From: Stenocarpella maydis
Lineage: Eukaryota; Ascomycota; Sordariomycetes; Diaporthales; Diaporthaceae
Assembly (NCBI GenBank): GCA_002270565.1
Contig: NQMI01000081.1
Location: forward strand, 3,748 to 67,747
Length of the DNA: 64,000 bases
Direction: 5' to 3'
Part shown: piece by piece, positions 11,514-55,712 of the stretch
How the letters are laid out: every line of letters begins with the position of its first letter
How positions within the stretch are numbered: position 1 is the stretch's first letter
Translations under genes and position numbers: made by a program
The notes under the pieces: model-generated
What the model saw: only the letters and a program-made list of their open reading frames with translations
Told to the model about the DNA's origin: nothing
Database searches by the model: none

Positions 11514-13728
11514 GTCTGCGCGTTGTTTGTGTGCTTTTTTGTTCATGTACGCGTGTGGACGAACCGTGCTGTCTGTCCCCTGGAACCAGAAAAACCTTTT
11601 CATCCGAGGACAGAAGGACCTGCGCCGCTGGAGAGCACAAGAGCCATCATTTTATACCCAACTATTGCTATTCTGGGGCCAGAGCGATGACACCCCATGC
11701 GGGGTACTTTGCCGTCGCCACCATCCAAGAAGCAGATTGCGTGAGGTGCTCCCCTTCTCCCAAGCGGCCCGGCGCAGGTCTCCGACATCGTTTGAGCATG
11801 CGTCTAGTGCATCGACACCCATGCCTTTCCCGTAGCCCGAGTACATGACCCTCCACACGGCTGTCGTCGCTCCTGCAGGCCCGGCCGGCTCTCGCACAAG
11901 ATGGCGATTCGTGTAATGCGAGTGGGTGCCTTCATGTTGCTATCGCCGGGCGATATCACGCAATGCCGCCACCACGCTCGGCACCAATAGGGCCGTTCCA
12001 GACGGCAGCGCTCAACCCCAAATGCCCTGGGGCCCGTCGTCATTTGGATCACGCAATGCTGCTTGCGATACAGACATGTCCCCATCCCGAGTCCTTGGCC
12101 AATAAACTGCTGCTGTCCATAGAATTAGCTGGAAATGATTGCCAGGCGTCTATCACTTGCCCTGTGGAGGCTGTCTTTTCTTCGACGAGATCCCAATATC
12201 CCATAGAGTCAGGCCCGATCTCGCCTCAATCATCGCAGCGGTGGAGCCCGTCACCCGTGAATGAATGGACTTCTTCCTATCGCAACAACCACTAAGCCTG
12301 GGACTTAAGACACTACATACTTATCATAATGGGGCGGGGCCGTGTTTCCAAGTGACGCTTTGCACTGCTTTGGTAATCGCGTAGTTACAATATGTCTGTC
12401 CTCACTCGCCGTGCGGCTCCCGAGTCTGTGAGAGACGACACCTGAGCACCACCGATGACCTGCCGTGACTGGTGGAGGTTATACCCCCAGCAATGTGCGG
12501 AGTGCTCCCACGCACGCTTGTTGGGACTCCGAGCTGTGCGGATGTTTCCCTCGTCAAGTGCTTTCTTCCTTACACCCTGCTGCTGATGGTGCTTGCCGAA
12601 GTACTGCAGCGGCGAGGATGTGACTGCTCTTTGGACATCCCATGTTGTACGTCCAATGCCATGCCATGGCCGAAGGGGGCGGGTACCGTGCTGCTAGCAC
12701 GAATGGCTGACTAGGTCCAGCAAAATCTGCGCTGGCAGAATCAGGAATGAGTGTAACTACGGCTACAACTCTGACCGCAGACGGAGCCAAATGAACCCGT
12801 TCACATCACCATGCGTGCGTAATCAGTTATGAAGTACTTGAGCTCTATCGTCTATTCGCCATGGCCCCTGACTATCTATACTCGACTACACTGACGGTGT
12901 GGTCGAGGTTGAAGGTATGACCATATGCTAACAGACAGTTGGTGGAATGGAGTAAAGAAAGTTGCACACGTGCATGCCTGGGCAAGCTATAGAGACGAAC
13001 GACATCAAGACGTGGACGACGATTATGCTTGGGTATTGGTCATTTAGAGCTTATATAGTATGTACCTAGGTGGTTAATTCAGTAACCGCGCCGGTGGTCT
13101 GGACCACCAGGAATGAGACACATAAGTATATTGATATTTACTTCGTTGACCTACTCCTATCTGAGCGAATAACCAAGAGCACTGAGCGCCCTTGTAGGAT
13201 GTCAGGTTTACCTCACAGGAATGGTACCCATGGATGTATGCTGCGCTCTGTGGCGGTGTCTACTTTGCTCAACTTCTTGCTTTTCTAGGATTGTATGGTC
13301 TGTCAGATCAATTACCAGCTAGCGGACTTTCAAAGGAAAAATACCTAGTTAGGAGAGACTAGGTCTCACTTGCAAGACCTAAGTTTCAACAGAGGGATTT
13401 TCAAATGTTTCAGCGGCTGTTTTAAGGCTGCCAGGGATGCAACCGTTCATAATAACCTTTGTGCTATCCTCAGAATCATGTCTGCGCGGCTTATTGCTAC
13501 TGGTTGGGCTTGTGCGCATTTAGGAAGTGGTTGTGCCTACATAGGTATAACTACCCAAATGCATATATGGATCAATAACTTTTATCTCGCGAGAATCCAA
13601 CTCTTGTTGCTACCTCCGTGGTAACCCTATGATTGAAAATATCAGTGGTAGTACAAATTACACTGGCAGTATATGACTGATATGGACTCGAGAAAACATT
13701 TCAGAGAACCGCCCCACTCGGTGTAATA
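11514..13728. other. Intergenic region, no gene recognised
   Basis: Mixed composition between the dioxygenase start and the inverted-repeat element. Frames of up to about 120 codons overlap on both strands without domain, codon bias or splice support. One gtacctaggt motif lies at about 13072-13081. Confidence 0.5.
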
Positions 13729-14230
13729 TTCTGACTTGCAAGCGAGAGTATTAAAACCACGCTAAGTGCGCGCATGTAACATACCACACCCTTTTAAGTC
13801 TCTTTAAATCCAGGTAAATTTAAAAAGACTTAAATATTAGATTTTAATACTCTTATTTAGAAGTTAGAATTCTTAATAAATATATAATTAAGAGTTAAGA
13901 GAAAAACTATTAAGAAAATACTAATAAATTTATTATAAATAGTTAAAATTACCTCCGTCTTTAAAAAAAAATATTAATTCTTTATTTATTCTCCTTAAGT
14001 TTAGCTAACTTTACTTATTATAGCTTTATAAAAGCTTTAAAAGAAATAAGCCTTATATTAAAATAAAGGGCTTTCTTTACTCTTTATTTTAATATAGGGC
14101 TTATTTTATTCAAAGCTATTGTAAAGGTATAATGGTTGGAATTAGCTGGATTTAAGGCGACTTAAAAGGGTGTGGTGTGTTATATGCGCGTACTTAGCAT
14201 GGTTTTGATACTCTCGCTCGCAAGTCAGAA
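13729..14230. mobile_element. 502-bp non-autonomous inverted-repeat (MITE/foldback) element with TA flanks
   Basis: The first about 90 bases (ttctgacttgc...) and the reverse complement of the last about 90 bases pair almost throughout. Nearly all differences are transitions, fitting RIP. The element is flanked by TA on both sides (13727-13728 and 14231-14232), the duplication expected for Tc1/mariner-like insertion. The AT-rich inside contains a second, nested inverted repeat (about 14032-14070 against 14079-14117). It has no coding capacity. A closely related terminal arm occurs at 33678-33752. Confidence 0.88.
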
Positions 14231-14829
14231 TAAGTAAGCGCTGCTATAGGTACAAGTTGCAAAAGCTCCGACCGTCCAATCCATGTATGATCAAAGAGTA
14301 GAGAAAAGGTGAGGAATCCCTCTATACAATTCTTCGCAGCAGCTCTAAAGAATTACGGACACGGAGACTGTTCAGTGACCAGAAGACACCCCCGTGCGAG
14401 TTGGAAAACCACATGAGGTAGATTTTTACCTTTGATTTTTGAGAGTAAAGCTGACCCGGGGAGAAGAGGACTGGTACCTTGCAGCAAGATGCCCAAGGGC
14501 AGGCATCTGTCTCCACCAGGAGAATTGAACGGGGGCTATCCTACAAAGGAAGACCACACAACTAACTTCAAACTGGATAAGTCATAAGCCACAAGAATTA
14601 AACGGTCTAGTCCGGCCCTAGCCTAACAGGTGACACATAGATCATGTCAAGAGGAATACTAATCCCTGGCAGTAATTTGACATGTTTTATGAACCCTGGC
14701 TATTCCTATTGTGCTCCCTCCTACCCGCACAAAATACTACCATGCATAAATTCACCAAGACCAGTTAGTGCAGTATTACTACATACATCCGAAACGGCAA
14801 ATTACCCTACACTGACAGTGCCTTTGGGT
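14231..14829. other. Intergenic, 3' flank of the phospholipase D gene
   Basis: About 600 bases with no supported gene. The part next to 14830 is probably the 3' untranslated region of the - strand phospholipase D gene. Confidence 0.5.
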
Positions 14830-30774: not shown

Positions 30775-33270
30775 ATGTAATAATCAGAGGGTTTCGCGAG
30801 TGCATTAAACCTAAAAGATCAAGGGTTTATGTTTAGAATACATTATTAGGTGGTTATTAAGCAATATTATTAGCTAACAATAATCACTAGCTGTAAGGCT
30901 ATTTAATACTAGGATTGAATACTATATTAATAACTAAAGAGTCTATTCTATAAAAACTATCTACTATAAGTGATAACTATATTCATATATATAATATCCT
31001 AACTCTTTAGTAGCTTATAGGCTTGCACATCAAGCCATCAAGCTATTGCATGAGGCTTGATACTTCATCCTTCAAGCAGGCTTATATGGCTTGCAATCAA
31101 GTATTGCAAGCCAGACCCTAACCCTAATAAGGTAGCATTACTAATTAGATTAGGCGGGATAACCTTTTCGGGAGCTATTTCCCGCCCTACAAGGTTGTCT
31201 TCTGCAGTAGTCAGCCGCTAATGCGTGTTAGCTTATAATACTATCTCCCTTCTTACTTCTTTTATTCTTAAAAGTGCTCCATAAGTTATTTTTCATTTAT
31301 TAGTGCCTCCGTTTATACCTTTCTAATCCATTATATTATCTGAAGTTAGGGATTCCTAGGTTTCCAAATCATCTCATCATTTTAGGAAGGTCGAGTAATA
31401 TAATTCCTTATTATTTACCATTCTACAGAATGCTATTACTATACAACCTTATTCTTCTTATAAGGCATAGGGCATTAAGAGCTACAAGGTCTTAGAGAAG
31501 GCCTCCAATTGTTATACTAAGTGCGTTTAGTAATAGCGGTTGAAGTACGATATCATAAAACTAAACAACTCTAAGGACCTCTTACATATCTTGGCTTAGC
31601 ACCAAAAACTAGAGGATAAGATTAAAGAGTTAGAGGAGAAGCTCCTTCATTTATATAAGCAGAAGCATATATAGCACAAGAGGATATCTCAGGCTATCCA
31701 TTAGGGTTTATTAAATTTAGATAAGTTAAATCATATAGAAAAGGAGGAAGCTAATGCTAAATAGAAGCAGATCGCCAAGTAGTTCGCTAAAGTGGTTTGC
31801 TAAAGTTCCACTAAAGAGGCTAGTAAGATAGTAACACAGGAGGTATAGCTGCATTCTAAGGGTAAAGTAGGAGTTTTTAATTAAAGTTCCTTAATAAATA
31901 ATAATACTAGTTGGTCTGAATTTATAGGTACTAGTAATAAGGGTAGTAAAGGAAATGCGCCTATAGGTAGCTCGTCTTAATGCCTAATTCTTATTACTGG
32001 AAATGAAACTTATTTAATTGTTACCTGACTGGTTCCAGTTTCTAGCCATTCTTAGTCTACTAGTCATACTATATCATTCTAATCTTATTTTCCCATAACT
32101 AGTATTCGCTAGGGTGCAGGGTGTAGATATTAGTATTTATTTAGATGGGTTTTTAGTATGACCAGTATTTGAGTTATTAATTGGATAGGGCGATTAGTAT
32201 TAGTATGCTTTTCTAAGGGGTTAACTGATTGCTGGCTTCTGGTCATTCCTATAGTAATTAGTCTCTTATTAGTTGTTTTCCCTATTTCAGTCGTAAAGAT
32301 CGGGATTCATTATATGGTCTTATTATAATGTTAGTTCGTTATAGTTTATTATATGTGGGGTTCTTAGGCCGCATTTCTAGCTCCTGGGGCTGTTTCATGG
32401 TGGTTTGCATATGGTACTTTTTGAGTTTATTATAATAGTGGGTCAAGTTTTAGGCTAGTTCCCATATATTTTCACTAGAATCATAGCCTTTCCATTTAAT
32501 AAGGTACTCTATCATCCCTTAGTGCTATTTTAAGTCCACAATGTTTTCTACTTTATATTCCTTATTATATTTATTAAGGGTTTCAATTTATATTTCAAGT
32601 TTTGCATTTTTAGGTGCTAGTTCTAAGAGTGAGATATAAAAGACTGGGTGTTATTTTATTCCTTTAGGTAGCGAGAGTTTATAATTAGTATCCGAAAGCT
32701 TTCTTAAAATTTCAAAGGGGCTAATTTTCCTATAGTTAAGCTTATTACTAGGTCGCTTGGTTTTAATATTTCAGTAAAGAAGGTAGACCTTATCTCCCTG
32801 CTTAAGAATTAGTCCCTTAATTCTTTTCTGATTTACATATTTCACCATTTATTTTTATATAAAAGAAAGTTCTACTTGAATATTCTTCTAGATTTATCTA
32901 ATTTATATTACTTTTTATTCCGCTGATTCCGCTAGGGTATTATCTAGCAGTAATTCATAATATACCTGAGGTTTATATCCATAGAGTGTGAAGAAAGGTA
33001 ATTGTTTAGTCGTGCTAGTAGTTGCACTATTATAGGCAAACTGTGCTAATAGTAGCAGTTCAACCCAATTATCCTATAATTAGTTAATATAGTATTAGAG
33101 GTATTATTCTACAATCTAGTTGATTCATTCTGTTTATCCGTTTATTTGTAGATATACCGTTATTAAGAGCTTATACTTTACTCTAAGTTACTTCATTAGT
33201 AACTTCTAAAAGTTAGATATAAAGAGCTTATCTCTATCTAAAATAATTTCATATAGCATTCCATAATTAC
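30775..33270 (-). mobile_element. RIP-degraded Ty3/gypsy retrotransposon, copy B (truncated)
   Basis: Inverted counterpart of 1-2640. On the - strand from 33270 it reads integrase core, RPSNKLNYRKIGPF-type motif, HPVF motif and chromodomain-like end (to about 32420), then the reverse-oriented accessory ORF (31380-31990 on +) and an LTR-like part (about 30775-31250). It is less AT-biased than copy A, so motifs are clearer, but many stops remain. Homology to copy A stops at about 33270, where unrelated sequence begins, so the pol part is truncated there. Limits are approximate. Confidence 0.82.
31380..31990 (+). pseudogene. Reverse-oriented accessory ORF of gypsy copy B, coiled-coil-like, broken
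   Basis: Runs opposite to pol within the element. The conceptual product has a short Cys-containing part (SNCYTKCV), a helix-forming segment EDKIKELEEKLLHLYKQK and a Ser/Gly/Asn-rich tail, interrupted by several TAG/TAA codons. Because the two copies share it, it belongs to the element rather than to neighbouring host DNA. Function unknown; nucleic-acid-binding or Gag-like are guesses. Confidence 0.5.
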
Positions 33271-33677: not shown

Positions 33678-33752
33678 TGTATAGCAAAAGGGTATGTATT
33701 ATTATATGCGCGTTACTAGCGCGGTTTTAATACTCTTGCTTACAAGTCAGAA
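33678..33752. mobile_element. Right terminal arm of a second inverted-repeat element
   Basis: Matches the right arm of the 13729-14230 element (aaaaggg...ttatatgcgcg...cggttttaatactc...gcttacaagtcagaa) and ends in the same gtcagaa followed by TA (33753-33754). The partner arm is missing or hidden by the gap and microsatellite. Confidence 0.75.
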
Positions 33753-34525
33753 TAAGCACGAGAGGGTGGATGGTCTCACTCCGTGGCCGGTGTTGGTCTC
33801 TTGGTGGATCATCCTAAGGGATACGTAGATACTCTTGCTGGGGTACCACGAGACGACGGGGATGGTAGTTTTATGGTCTCTTCTTAATTCCATCGCTCTT
33901 GGTTTCACTGGACCAAAGCCAGAACCACTTCATACGCAGATATCGAGATGTCGCCGAAAGAAAGTCGTTGACGGCTGTGCACCTTCTTGGTTATTACGGC
34001 AAGGGCCGATTTGGTGTCGTGTCACAACGGAAAGACAAGTCACGAGGATGTTCTCATCTGGAACTCGTGTAGCCGTATGCGATTTTCATTCCCGGTGTAA
34101 AGCCATCGCGAATTGTTGGTGTCTGAAGACTCGGGCAAAGCACCCGGATATCCGACACCGAGCAAGATTAATCGGCCAAGTCTCTCCTCCAGGGCGTACT
34201 GTATCTTGCTCTGATGCGTGCGGACATTACCACCACGGCTATGATATCTCTGAGAACCTCGCACTCAGTATGTCAAAATTTCCATTTTCGGTCCATGACG
34301 AACCCAGATGAATCCGAAGAAAGGATAGTATCTGTATGTACAAGAAGTGAAAAAACCTTTTGGACCTGACTTCAGGGCCAAGGTATCTCCCAATATCCAC
34401 CGCCAAACCAACAACACGAGTCTAGCTGCTCATTGGAACGCCAGTGACCCATTTCAAAGATTTGGAGCAACAAGAAGAAATGCCAAAGATCAGAAAATGC
34501 AGATGAACACCCAGCGGTCGGGCGA
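33753..34525. other. Intergenic, no supported gene
   Basis: A 158-codon frame (33835-34311, +) is present but shows no domain, no splice context and an unusual Cys/His/Arg mix. The last about 200 bases are likely the 3' untranslated region of the GH128 gene. Confidence 0.5.
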
Positions 34526-38995: not shown

Positions 38996-40752
38996 ATGGA
39001 CTGGAACAACACGGATTCCGGCATCTGGGACCAGCTGGACATCGCTGGGGCCCCAGAGGTCGCCGAGCCCACCGCGTCTGTACTCGACGGCTTCGACTAT
39101 CAACTCAGCGCCGACAACTCTGCCGGGGAGTCGTCATCCTCGGCGACCCTGTTAGGCTCGCCACAACGGGCCATCGTACCGCGCGGGCCGGTGCCGATAC
39201 TCCCCTTGGGCCCGCTCACCAGCGCTCCGTCCAACAGGAAGAAGCTCGAGCGGAGGGGGCACTCCAAGTCCCGAAACGGCTGCTTCAACTGCAAGAAGAG
39301 GCGTATCAAGTGCCAAGAGACCCATCCCTCCTGCGGCCACTGCATCAAGGGGAAGCTGAGGTGCGAGTACCCAGCTGCTCCGCGGGTAGTACACCAGCCC
39401 AAGGACCAGGTGCGGTTATTTGGCCTAGAGGATATGCGCTTTTTCCAGCACTTCCTCCAGTACTCGTTCCCCCACCACCCACTTGGCAACGACCGGATCT
39501 GGACGCACGAGGTGCCCTGCCTGTCCTACAACTACGAGTTCCTCATGCACGCCATCCTGAGCCTCGCCGCGTCCGAGCTCATCGCCTCGGACGCCTCGCT
39601 CGCCCAGGCGGCCATGGCCCACCGACTCAAGTCCATACAGGCCATCAAGCGCAAGCTGGCGGCCAGCAACGAGGGCATTACCTACGCCGAAGGCAACGCC
39701 CTGCTCGCGACCTGCTTTGCGCTGACCTTCCAGAGCGTCATCCTGGAGGACGGCATGGCCGAGTACATGGCGTTCATACGGGGTGTGATCATCGTGGTGA
39801 TACAGATGTGGAAGGCGGGCGTGGGCTTTATGTTCAGGCACCTGCTCGAGCAGGAACAGAAGGACCTCCTCAAGCCTCACATAGACAATTTGACGCTCCC
39901 GGAGGGGATGTGGGAGTGGAGGGCTGGGGCGCTGGCGTCCCTGGCGGGGATCAAAAGCCTGTGTGACGGGGACGACTTGAAGATGAAGTACTGGCAGATG
40001 ACTGAGGACATGGCCAATGGGCTTGACGAAGAGTCCCCTTATAGAGGTTTGTAGCTGTGGACCCCATCTCTCGGCCGGTTGCTCGGCTCTATGCTGACCC
40101 ATGTGCCACCCCCGCCCCCCACACACAAAGCATACAAGGCTATGGGCGATCACTACTCGTGGTGGATGATGCTGCCGCACGAACAGTTCTCCAGGATAGT
40201 TGACCCCAGCGATCAGGTCTTCACACTACTGGCTGCCAACTGTACGTTTGCAACCAACCCTCCAGCCTTCCCAAGCATCCCTTACCACACAAGACATTCA
40301 CTGACTCTAGACCCCCAGGGATCGCTATCAAACAGGTCAGCTTCTAGAGACATTTCCTACCTTCCTGGGAATAACAATCCCCTCCCCGGACCCAGATCCC
40401 AAAATACCATTGACACGCTGCGCCCCTGTCCCACGCTGTGTTGGAATGGGACTTCTTCCTCGGTTCTTTGAAAACTGACTCTCAATGCCAACACAAGATC
40501 ATGGCTATCATCACCGAGGTGGAGAAGGAGTGGACCCAGAAGAAGGGCGACAAGGGCGACGCCAACGAGGGGATGGGCCGCTGGCTGAGGTATCTGAATA
40601 GGCAGGTCGGGTCGGCGCTCGTCCGCTACAACCAGTGGCCGATGTGGGTGCAAGGGCGGCTCGAGGCCGACCCATGTTTCTTCGGCAAGGGGACCAGGTC
40701 TGGGAAGCCCATGGAGCGCTCGTGCGTGGGTTACGCGAAGCTCATTACGTGA
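38996..40752 (+). CDS. Zn(II)2Cys6 transcription factor, UPC2/sterol-uptake-control-like
   Basis: Nuclear regulator. Four exons, 38996-40046, 40131-40241, 40319-40335 (17 nt) and 40498-40752, give 477 aa, with phases G|CA, T|GG and phase 0. The cluster is C96-x2-C99-x6-C106-x6-C113-x2-C116-x6-C123 within HSKSRNGCFNCKKRRIKC, the wording typical of UPC2/ECM22-like factors, followed by the helical region of that class (DUF3468 type: FFQHFLQYSFPHH, FLMHAILSLAASELI). The tiny exon encodes the join LAANWIAIKQIMA, which reads as a natural family motif. The start is the first ATG after a plausible leader; an in-frame ATG at 38858 is less likely. Intron 3 (40336-40497) is homologous to an antiporter intron. 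The regulon cannot be read, and sterol control is only the family precedent. Confidence 0.87.
40336..40497 (+). mobile_element. Candidate introner-like element A (intron 3 of the UPC2-like gene)
   Basis: 162-bp intron, GTCAGC...ACAAG. The block 40433-40488 matches 54476-54531 at about 47 of 56 positions by hand count, including ggttctttgaaa and ctgactctcaatgc. A weaker block at 40367-40390 matches 54411-54434. The two blocks are 66 and 65 bases apart in the two introns. The host exons are unrelated. The ctgac inside the shared block is a suitable branch site. Confidence 0.75.
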
Positions 40753-53158: not shown

Positions 53159-55712
53159 ATGCCGAAGTTGGAAGTAAATAACTTCAACATTGTGCTGTCT
53201 GTCCTCGGGGGCTGGCTCTCTCTGTTCGGGCTCGTCTCGTATCTATGCAAGGAGCACTTCTACCTGTCTGAAGCATGTGAGTTGTTGCACACCCGAGTCC
53301 CGTCTTGCTATACATGCACTCGCTGCTGCAAGGCACTGCGTTCCTGCGTTCGTTCCTGCGCGTGGAGGTACCGAGAGAACGACAAGCCCTTGGCTGACCC
53401 AACCGCAAACCAGTGATATCGCTCTTGGCCGGCGCCGCACTCTCGCCCCATGCGAGCAACCTAATCAGGCCGCTGGAATACGCGTGAGTAGGCGCTGAAC
53501 CAACCCCACCCTTCCCCTGGGCACCAAGGATCGAGTTGATCGGATTTTTTGTGTGTCCCCAGCGGATCCCAGGAGAACCTAGACTCGGCCATCCTCTATT
53601 TCTCGCGCCTCGTGCTTGGCATCCAGCTGGTCCTCGCCGGCGTGCAGCTCCCGAGCCGGTACCTCAAGACGCAATGGAAGCCCCTCGCCATCCTGCTGGG
53701 CCCGGTCATGACGGCCATGTGGCTCTCGACCAGCCTCCTCGTCTGGGCCCTCGTCCCGGACCTGCCCTTCCTGCACGCGCTCGTGATCGCGTCGTGTATA
53801 ACCCCCACCGACCCGATCCTGTCCAACGTGGTCCTGAAGGGCAAATTTGCCGATCTCAACGTCCCCAAGGACCTCCAGCAGATCATTATCGCCGAGTCTG
53901 GGGCAAATGACGGCCTGGGGTACCCATTCCTGTTCCTGGCCCTATTTATTATCAAGTACACCGGGGCTGGGGCTGATTCGGCACCCGGGGGTGTCCGCGC
54001 GGCGATGGGCATGTGGTTTGGTGAGAACTTGGGCTATACGATCCTCCTGTCGGTGGTCTACGGCGCTGTTGTAGGCTGGATCGCGAAGGAGCTCCTGCAC
54101 TGTAAGTTGTGACCACCTGGGTCCCCCACACGTCTGTGGCTGTTCATCAATACTGACTGAGTATCAGGGGCCGAGGACCGCAAGTTTGTAGACCGCGAGA
54201 GCTTCCTCGCCTACGTCTTCTCGCTTGCCCTTTTTATCACCGGCACATGTGGTATAATCGGGACTGACGAGTACGTACCCATCACATCCAGCACCCCGCC
54301 CCCAGTTCCTTGAATACGAAGGCTCACCATGGTCAACAGCGTCCTTGCGTGCTTCATCGCAGGGAACGCTTTCACCGTAAGCAGCTTCTGGAGTTATTTT
54401 TAGCCCGCTTTGGAATAAGAAATTCCCTGCCGGAGTCTCTGTCTCAAATGCTATGGCCACCCAGTGGCCCGATCCACTCTGTGTTTGAATGAAATTCCTT
54501 CCATGGTTCTTTGAAAGCTGACTCTCAATGCTGCAGTGGGACGATTGGTTCCGCCTGGAGACGCTTGATGACTCCCTCCAACCCACCGTCGACATGTTGC
54601 TAAATATTGGCATCTTTATGTGGTTTGGTGCCGTTGTCCCCTGGACCAAGTTCCTGGACAACGAAGTGATCCCACTGTACCGACTCGTGCCTTTGGGTAT
54701 TCTCATCTTGCTCTTCCGGAGGCTACCCTGGGTATACGCTCTTCACAAGAAGATCCCCCAGATCGAAGAGACTCGCCAGGCCATATTTGTCGGGTTCTTT
54801 GGTCCTATCGGAGTGTCTGGTATCTTTTACCTCTACATAACTCTGGAGTTTTTGGAAACGCTGAGAGATGGTGACGGGGAACTTAGGCATGACGGTGAGT
54901 CGCGACCCCCCCCCCCCCCTTCCTTTCCCACACAATAGGCGGATAGATATCGCGTTCCTAGGTTGAGCTGTACCATTACAGCCGTCATACCTCATTACGA
55001 GAGCCCTTCAAGGGGGCTCAGAATGCATCAGCTGTAGCACGAAGCTGCTGCCCTGTGATCCATTCCGAGAACGGCAGTAATTGATTTTGGATCCTGCAGT
55101 AAACAATCTGCCGGAGGCCGTGCTTGTAGTCGTCTGGTTCTTATGCATATGCAGTGTGGCAAGTCCAGACCCTCTTTTATACCGTTTGCCACACAACTCA
55201 GTCCTAACAGCAAGCACAAACAGGTCGTCCACGGCCTAAGCATACCGATGGGTAAGCTCGGGTACTGGACTATCTCCCGGACCACCACAGAAGCAACAGA
55301 CGCGTCTGTCGCTGTGAGCCTCAGGGGTCGCTTGGATAGAATCAGCCTATGCTTGCCGAGCTTCTCTGCGTCACGCCGCAACTCCCTGAGCTGTGAACGG
55401 AGCGGCTCGGCCGCACCGGACAGCCGACTGGCATCTCGTGTCGGCCCCGCCAGGGCTGTTTGGCGCATCGGTGGGACGATCATCCCCGCCGGGACACAAC
55501 CGGAGCAGCAGGATCAGCAATCCCAAACTCCCCCGCAGCGGTCCGGGCTACGGGTCGCTTCGTGTGACCAGCCCGGGGGTGGGGGAGGGACTTCAAGGTC
55601 GCATGCGCCTGCAGACGAGGTTGACAGTGCCCCTGCGGCTCCGTCGCCTGCCCTTCGGTCCGCTCAAGGCCCAGCGAGCCGCACGATACGGTTTCCTGAT
55701 GAGGACCCCTGA
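53159..55712 (+). CDS. Na+(K+)/H+ antiporter, Nha1/Sod2-like, plasma membrane
   Basis: Exports Na+ or K+ in exchange for protons. Eight exons, 53159-53276, 53414-53483, 53563-54101, 54168-54270, 54340-54376, 54537-54894, 55100-55158 and 55224-55712, give 590 aa. Phases agree at every join. About a dozen hydrophobic segments are present; the ion-site motif reads ESGANDGLGYPFLFLALF and the neighbouring helix ITPTDPILSNVV. Later helices include GTDDVLACFIAGNAFTWDD and VVVWFLCICSVVVHGLSIP. The C-terminal about 150 residues are hydrophilic, Ser/Gln/Gly-rich and end RTIRFPDEDP. Intron 5 is the introner-like element; intron 6 contains a run of 14 C; intron 7 has a GC donor (gcaagt). The start fits the family (MPKLEVNNFNIVLSVLGG). 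The tail is short for Nha1, closer to Sod2. Confidence 0.92.
54377..54536 (+). mobile_element. Candidate introner-like element B (intron 5 of the antiporter gene)
   Basis: 160-bp intron, GTAAGC...CTGCAG, homologous to 40336-40497 over two collinear blocks (54411-54434 and 54476-54531). It is more than twice the length of typical introns here (51-90 bp) and of the flanking antiporter intron 4 (69 bp). No clear target duplication is visible at the splice sites. Confidence 0.75.
55159..55223 (+). other. GC-AG intron 7 of the antiporter
   Basis: The only phase-consistent donor is GTG|gcaagt, a GC donor with otherwise perfect consensus. The acceptor is acaaacag. The join gives CICSV|VVHGLS, restoring a hydrophobic helix. 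Confidence 0.75.

Follow-up and report, generated by a model that had tools for sequence, protein, structure and literature searches.

A probable introner-like element family with a CATG-type target preference behind two homologous introns of unrelated genes

Two introns of unrelated genes in a 64-kb window (the whole stretch of DNA analysed here, 64,000 nucleotides) are almost certainly members of one introner-like element family. As a whole, the observations are best explained, in our judgement with good probability, by a single family of such elements that has spread by an RNA-linked route and formed new spliceosomal introns in unrelated genes. Where new spliceosomal introns come from has long been an open question, and the process can be observed in few lineages. 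In the present family, dozens of insertions can be compared within a single genome; their ends are exact and their target rule is measurable. Its two sister subfamilies differ in their site rules and so lend themselves to a natural comparison. Because the ends are exact and the target rule can be measured, reverse splicing, break capture, and DNA transposition differ in testable predictions.

A preliminary description had reported homologous introns in a gene for a UPC2-like transcription factor and a gene for an antiporter. In this study, we confirmed both introns, at 40336-40497 and 54377-54536, with GT..AG ends. The features of the two host genes and of the two copies, all on the forward strand, are as follows.

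38996..40752, +, host gene 1, UPC2-like Zn2Cys6 transcription factor, four exons; in-frame 477-residue product with Pfam Zn_clus and Fungal_trans_2
40336..40497, +, introner copy of subfamily B, intron 3 of the UPC2-like gene, 162 nt, GTCAGC..AAG, after CAG; full-length homology to antiporter intron 5
40474..40488, +, conserved tail, UPC2 copy, including the CTGAC branch-like motif at 40475-40479; ACTGACTCTCAATGC, differs from the tail pattern at one position
53159..54894, +, host gene 2, sodium/hydrogen antiporter, exons 1-6 as read; in-frame 408-residue product with Pfam Na_H_Exchanger (E 2.9e-37)
54377..54536, +, introner copy of subfamily A, intron 5 of the antiporter gene, 160 nt, GTAAGC..CAG; genome matches, junction inside Na_H_Exchanger
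54381..54385, +, 5' half of the near-terminal inverted repeat, GCAGC, antiporter copy; in the predicted fold it pairs with GCTGC at 54530-54534
54517..54531, +, conserved tail, antiporter copy, including the CTGAC branch-like motif at 54518-54522; GCTGACTCTCAATGC, exact match to the tail pattern
54530..54534, +, 3' half of the near-terminal inverted repeat, GCTGC, antiporter copy; in the predicted fold it pairs with GCAGC at 54381-54385

BLASTN within the window aligned 40431-40488 with 54474-54531 at 84.5% identity over 58 bases (49 matches, E 3.8e-13), in agreement with the 47 or so matching positions out of 56 counted previously in the best block. The homology had been claimed to run along the whole length of both introns, and this was borne out by their end-to-end global alignment, which scored 121.5 compared to a maximum of 46.5 among 1000 first-order Markov shuffles. 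The local alignment score was 85, and the maximum of 2000 shuffles was 32. No third introner copy was found within the 64-kb window. The two introns had also been called unusually long. They are indeed the longest of their genes, but one ordinary intron comes close: the ordinary introns measure 137, 79, 66, and 69 nt in the antiporter gene and 84 and 77 nt in the UPC2-like gene. The name "UPC2-like" is taken from the preliminary description; the corrected exons of this gene are 38996-40046, 40131-40241, 40319-40335, and 40498-40752. Its introner lies in phase 0 after residue 393, with the in-frame join WIAIKQ/IMAIITE (the slash marks the junction), and is preceded by the 17-nt exon 40319-40335, which has the 77-nt intron on its other side. 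In the antiporter gene, the introner is in phase 0 after residue 289, and the join CFIAGNAFT/WDDWF falls inside the Na_H_Exchanger domain (residues 27-382). The CTGAC motif in the conserved tail is probably the branch site.

The genome searched was the window's own assembly (53,543,916 bases, or 53.5 Mb, in 312 contigs). A search of the whole genome, which the preliminary description had named as a check, was strongly positive, with GT/AG-bounded matches inside genes. The antiporter intron gave 40 scored matches among 102 candidates (81-100% identity, self included); of these 40, 34 extend over positions 1-160, and the UPC2 intron gave 33 genome matches, self included. The first introns of the same two genes, used as a control, were single-copy and matched only themselves. 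Pattern counts were controlled by reading the same pattern backwards. A 25-base tail pattern with up to 3 mismatches occurred at 105 places (control, 0), a 20-base tail pattern at 143 (control, 3), and a 27-base head pattern at 55 (control, 0); the corresponding counts for subfamily B were 18 and 5 for its head and 10 and 0 for its tail. The genome thereby holds about a hundred or more similar introns. The loci fetched for further analysis are a sample, not a full census, and are biased to copies that resemble the queries or keep the tail or head well. A profile search of these loci yielded 101 unique hits, corresponding to 99 elements (L109 and L113 are in two pieces each), and L006, L017, L053, and L110 carry two copies each.

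A donor and an acceptor were present at the expected positions in 89 of the 99 elements; with the tail pattern at 143 places against 3, this upholds the earlier identification as introner-like elements. These 89 elements have 89 distinct 5' flanks and 89 distinct 3' flanks. When the element was removed, the best coding frame ran on across the junction in 77 of the 89 and failed to do so in 12. The best sense score was higher than the antisense score in 74, and 15 were no better in sense, in this sample of fetched loci. L007 is a false failure of the frame test, with a perfect alignment to a kinase. Among the 66 copies with exact consensus ends, all with distinct 5' flanks, the frame was continuous in 58 compared to 39% for randomly re-paired flanks, and sense was best in 55. 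Simple frame openness did not discriminate in these copies (51/66 vs. 72% permuted). The 55 copies with a best sense frame were divided into 31 in phase 1, 17 in phase 0, and 7 in phase 2.

The spliced reading frames were also examined for protein domains. For the Pfam scan, 20 spliced ORFs were picked by hand from the 36 longest of the 66, and in 13 of them a domain runs across the junction. Twelve different families are represented: GH43 (twice), luciferase-like monooxygenase, endonuclease/phosphatase, nucleotide-sugar transporter, alanine racemase N, MRJP, aldo/keto reductase, alpha-amylase, 2-hydroxyacid dehydrogenase, GMC oxidoreductase, TrAA12-like, and CoA-ligase. In L011 and L110 the junction is at or just outside the domain edge, and the remaining five ORFs showed no family. 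Searches against solved structures placed no gap at the junction in three of three host proteins. The alignment to yeast CBK1 reads GWPPF/C at the junction and is ungapped throughout, that to the aldo-keto reductase YvgN reads SVGQ/WEIHP, with a 6-residue gap ending four residues upstream, and that to a fungal-type alpha-amylase reads HKRG/MYLM. These results suggest, at the level of sequence, that the introner copies would be spliced out as introns, and they may be recent gains. The clearest non-genic copy is that of L027/L028 on contig C110, where the same copy occurs twice, inverted and about 28 kb apart, with AT-rich flanks and without the donor end. In L078 and L104, the 3' part of an introner is joined to an unrelated 5' part with a donor-like start (GTACGT and GTGAGT), possibly through fusion with an ordinary intron or through strong decay.

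The copies fall into two subfamilies of elements about 160 nt long. Subfamily A (54377 type) has the consensus GTAAGCAGCTTCTGGAGTCATTTTTAAC...TTCTTTGAAAGCTGACTCTCAATGCTGCAG, and subfamily B (40336 type, including the UPC2 copy) starts with GTCAGCTTCTAGAG... and frequently ends in GGACCAG. The subfamily A copies have a mean identity of 87% to their own consensus. The closest pair found consists of the antiporter intron and L002, with 95.7% identity along the full length; the highest value on aligned columns is 96.3%, and the median nearest-neighbour identity is 84.6%. The family had been described as still or recently mobile. This claim is weakened, as the closest pair at about 96% and the median of 85%, both from an incomplete sample, stand against the 98-99% identity of the Dothideomycetes introner families that are called active in the accessible part of PMC4457414. 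Present mobility is unproven because even the closest pair is only about 96% identical. The internal-deletion derivatives L109, L113, and L114 measure 121, 84, and 57 nt and keep both ends; therefore, copies become introns of ordinary size.

In 78 A-type copies, the base after the insertion was never C; it was T in 44, A in 20, and G in 14. CA^T or C^AT (the caret marks the insertion) was found at 29 of the 78, and among the 66 exact-end copies CA^TG occurred in 10 and C^ATG in 7, when 0.38 of each was expected from the flanks. Only 5 of the 78 A-type copies follow AG, and 2 of the 66 lie at AG^G. Subfamily B, sorted by heads, follows AG in 10 of 11 copies; the single exception, L075, has an A-like end and sits at CA^TG. 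No target-site duplication was detected in the 66 exact-end copies, as the counts at lengths of 1-9 were above those of permuted pairs by at most a fraction of a count. Palindromy of the whole target was not higher than in permuted pairs (1.74 vs. 1.61). Pairing of the intron with its target, with the intron CATGG guiding insertion, was rejected: CAT-type targets were found for 12 of 34 copies with the 3'-part motif and 18 of 55 without it (P 0.82).

Selection by splicing is unlikely to be the source of the site motif because it should favour AG^G, which is so rare here, and because C follows three of six ordinary introns of the two window genes, a small control, and none of the 78 copies. The avoidance of AG^G also makes subfamily A a poor fit to simple spliceosomal reverse splicing. 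The CATG-type rule is unlike the way the spliceosome chooses its sites and suggests a distinct site-selective step; no counterpart of it was found in the accessible portions of the introner literature searched. Tentatively, subfamily A may enter by a sequence-directed, CATG-centred step that differs both from spliceosomal site choice and from ordinary cut-and-paste, whereas its sister B, with the same core, enters after AG. If true, intron gain would depend on a nuclease or integrase that is selective for its sites and works on transcribed DNA, and site choice would switch between close introners.

Near its ends the A consensus is symmetrical, with GCAGC-N5-GAGTCA facing TGACTC-N5-GCTGC. The match of 12/16 was equalled by 13 of 5000 shuffles, and both blocks are exact in only 10 of the 59 copies in alignment A1, which contains 59 of the 66 exact copies (L055, L056, L060, L066, L074, L101, and L112, of unusual length, were omitted). 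End-to-end pairing of at least 5 pairs was predicted in 57 of the 59 compared to 39% of shuffles, and of at least 15 pairs in 38 of the 59 compared to 7% of shuffles. The mean fold z over the 66 copies was -2.0. The consensus had a z of -3.2 in sense and -2.6 in antisense, and none of 300 shuffles was as stable as the sense consensus. RNAalifold predicted no consensus structure among the copies, and compensatory changes were as frequent as in shuffles. In the strand test for an RNA- or DNA-level hairpin, sense folded no better than antisense relative to shuffles. Folding for a shared stem had been proposed as a check; the founder consensus does form a predicted hairpin, but no covariation maintains it. 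With no maintained fold, the symmetry is therefore a property of the founder or of the copying act, and it would also fit a DNA element.

The sense-biased, gene-restricted, and seamless insertion is best fitted by an RNA-mediated route linked to transcription, and we lean slightly towards such a route. It has to be weighed against a miniature inverted-repeat DNA transposon with splice sites, which would move as DNA and persist in exons only at places where splicing removes it. This origin is possible but rather unlikely. The imperfect near-end inverted repeats are in its favour, and the CATG-like target motif is what an integrase could impose. The alignment of the consensus with its own reverse complement scored 64 against 34.7 (sd 12.3) in shuffles, yet the largest of the 500 shuffles reached 89. 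The missing target-site duplication and the sense bias (74/89) argue against a transposon. Moreover, few of the 99 elements are without splice sites, and the surrounding DNA, as judged by eye, is clearly AT-rich for L027 alone, although neutral intergenic copies would be expected to be common.

Two other explanations are much less probable. A conserved non-coding RNA residing in introns, such as a snoRNA, might have been copied from intron to intron with the intron as its carrier. Multi-copy intronic RNAs exist, and the introns fold better than shuffles. However, neither window copy had an Rfam match up to E 1, the similarity reaches the splice sites with a middle no better conserved than the ends, and covariation was absent from the copies, which makes this explanation very improbable. 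Whole-gene duplication, exon shuffling, segmental duplication, or chance resemblance can be given hardly any weight. L023 and L033 have about 110 bases of flanking DNA in common at 77% identity, and GH43 appears twice among the 13 domains; the likeness of the two flanks means that related genes may host a few of the copies. As a general explanation, duplication or chance is refuted by the distinct flanks on each side, the Pfam diversity at the junctions, alignment scores far above every shuffle, and the single-copy control introns. The preliminary description had held that the host genes are unrelated and that duplication is no explanation, and the 89 distinct 5' and 89 distinct 3' flanks, which exclude gene duplication, confirm this view. 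The copies in L023 and L033 themselves lie 80 and 59 bases from the similar flanks; perhaps these are related genes with nearby insertions.

The introner-like elements of Dothideomycetes, whose original study reportedly dates from 2012, resemble the present family, a likeness drawn from descriptions. In both cases, near-identical introns are spread over many genes without relation to each other, more than one family or subfamily is found in a genome, and copies decay to ordinary introns (PMC4457414 for the Dothideomycetes). An AG/GY insertion preference is attributed to these elements in the part of PMC8469720 available to us; subfamily A departs from it, and subfamily B follows AG in nearly all copies. 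This mismatch does not exclude an introner-like identity because, according to the same part of that source, the preference is not common to all known families.

The symmetrical sister stwintrons and cropped sister introns of Hypoxylaceae/Xylariaceae, as far as the available text of PMC8469720 and PMC12403724 describes them, are similar in their proliferation, seamless integration, near-terminal inverted repeats, and lack of target duplication. Stwintrons are nested, whereas the present element is a single GT..AG intron. The stwintron repeat GUAUAAAAAC and the palindrome WTTCTAGAAA are absent from the A consensus, as judged by reading it, and subfamily B has TTCTAGA. The stwintron authors reported no bias of site or phase, in contrast to the CATG-type preference of subfamily A. 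A [D1,2] stwintron, in which a nested intron splits the donor behind its first base, was rejected for the present copies, as GTAAGC directly follows the exon and just 27% of the 66 copies have a G before it. A 2022 survey listed 548 putative introner families in 175 genomes (PMC9860276, accessible part). The present family is like those introners in being a gene-enriched, intron-generating family, and the ascomycete families there likewise have no target-site duplication. That survey, in the same part, counted repeats of at least 6 nt within 20 nt of the intron ends and reported no TIRs in ascomycete families, unlike the GAGTCA facing TGACTC and GCAGC facing GCTGC of the present consensus. No account of the present family was found in the titles and abstract openings of the introner literature searched; it is new as far as could be checked and may already stand in the supplementary species tables of PMC9860276.

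A family of elements of about 160 nt has probably expanded within this genome and given rise to new spliceosomal introns in genes that are unrelated to one another; the copies carry their own donor, branch-like motif, and acceptor. In the proposed mechanism, the near-terminal stem would draw together the ends of the excised intron RNA, which would be joined into a transcribed gene by reverse splicing or by capture at a break and then made into DNA. The sites of subfamily A do not follow the AG/G rule of ordinary splicing, with CA^T and C^AT favoured. After insertion, the copies would drift without selection on the fold, and some would lose their middle and become ordinary short introns.

Other repeats were also observed. 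Among 93 non-overlapping sequences (the window and the loci, with introners masked), 24 hits inspected by eye showed no other repeat family with intron-like ends. The window regions 30804-31125, 2371-2500, and 2626-2690 are 84-85% identical to parts of L014 on another contig and represent a dispersed repeat. At 13727-14232, an inverted pair (13727-13817 and 14142-14232, 90% identical) flanks a further palindrome and has the appearance of a fold-back or MITE-type element; a partial relative lies at 33686-33756.
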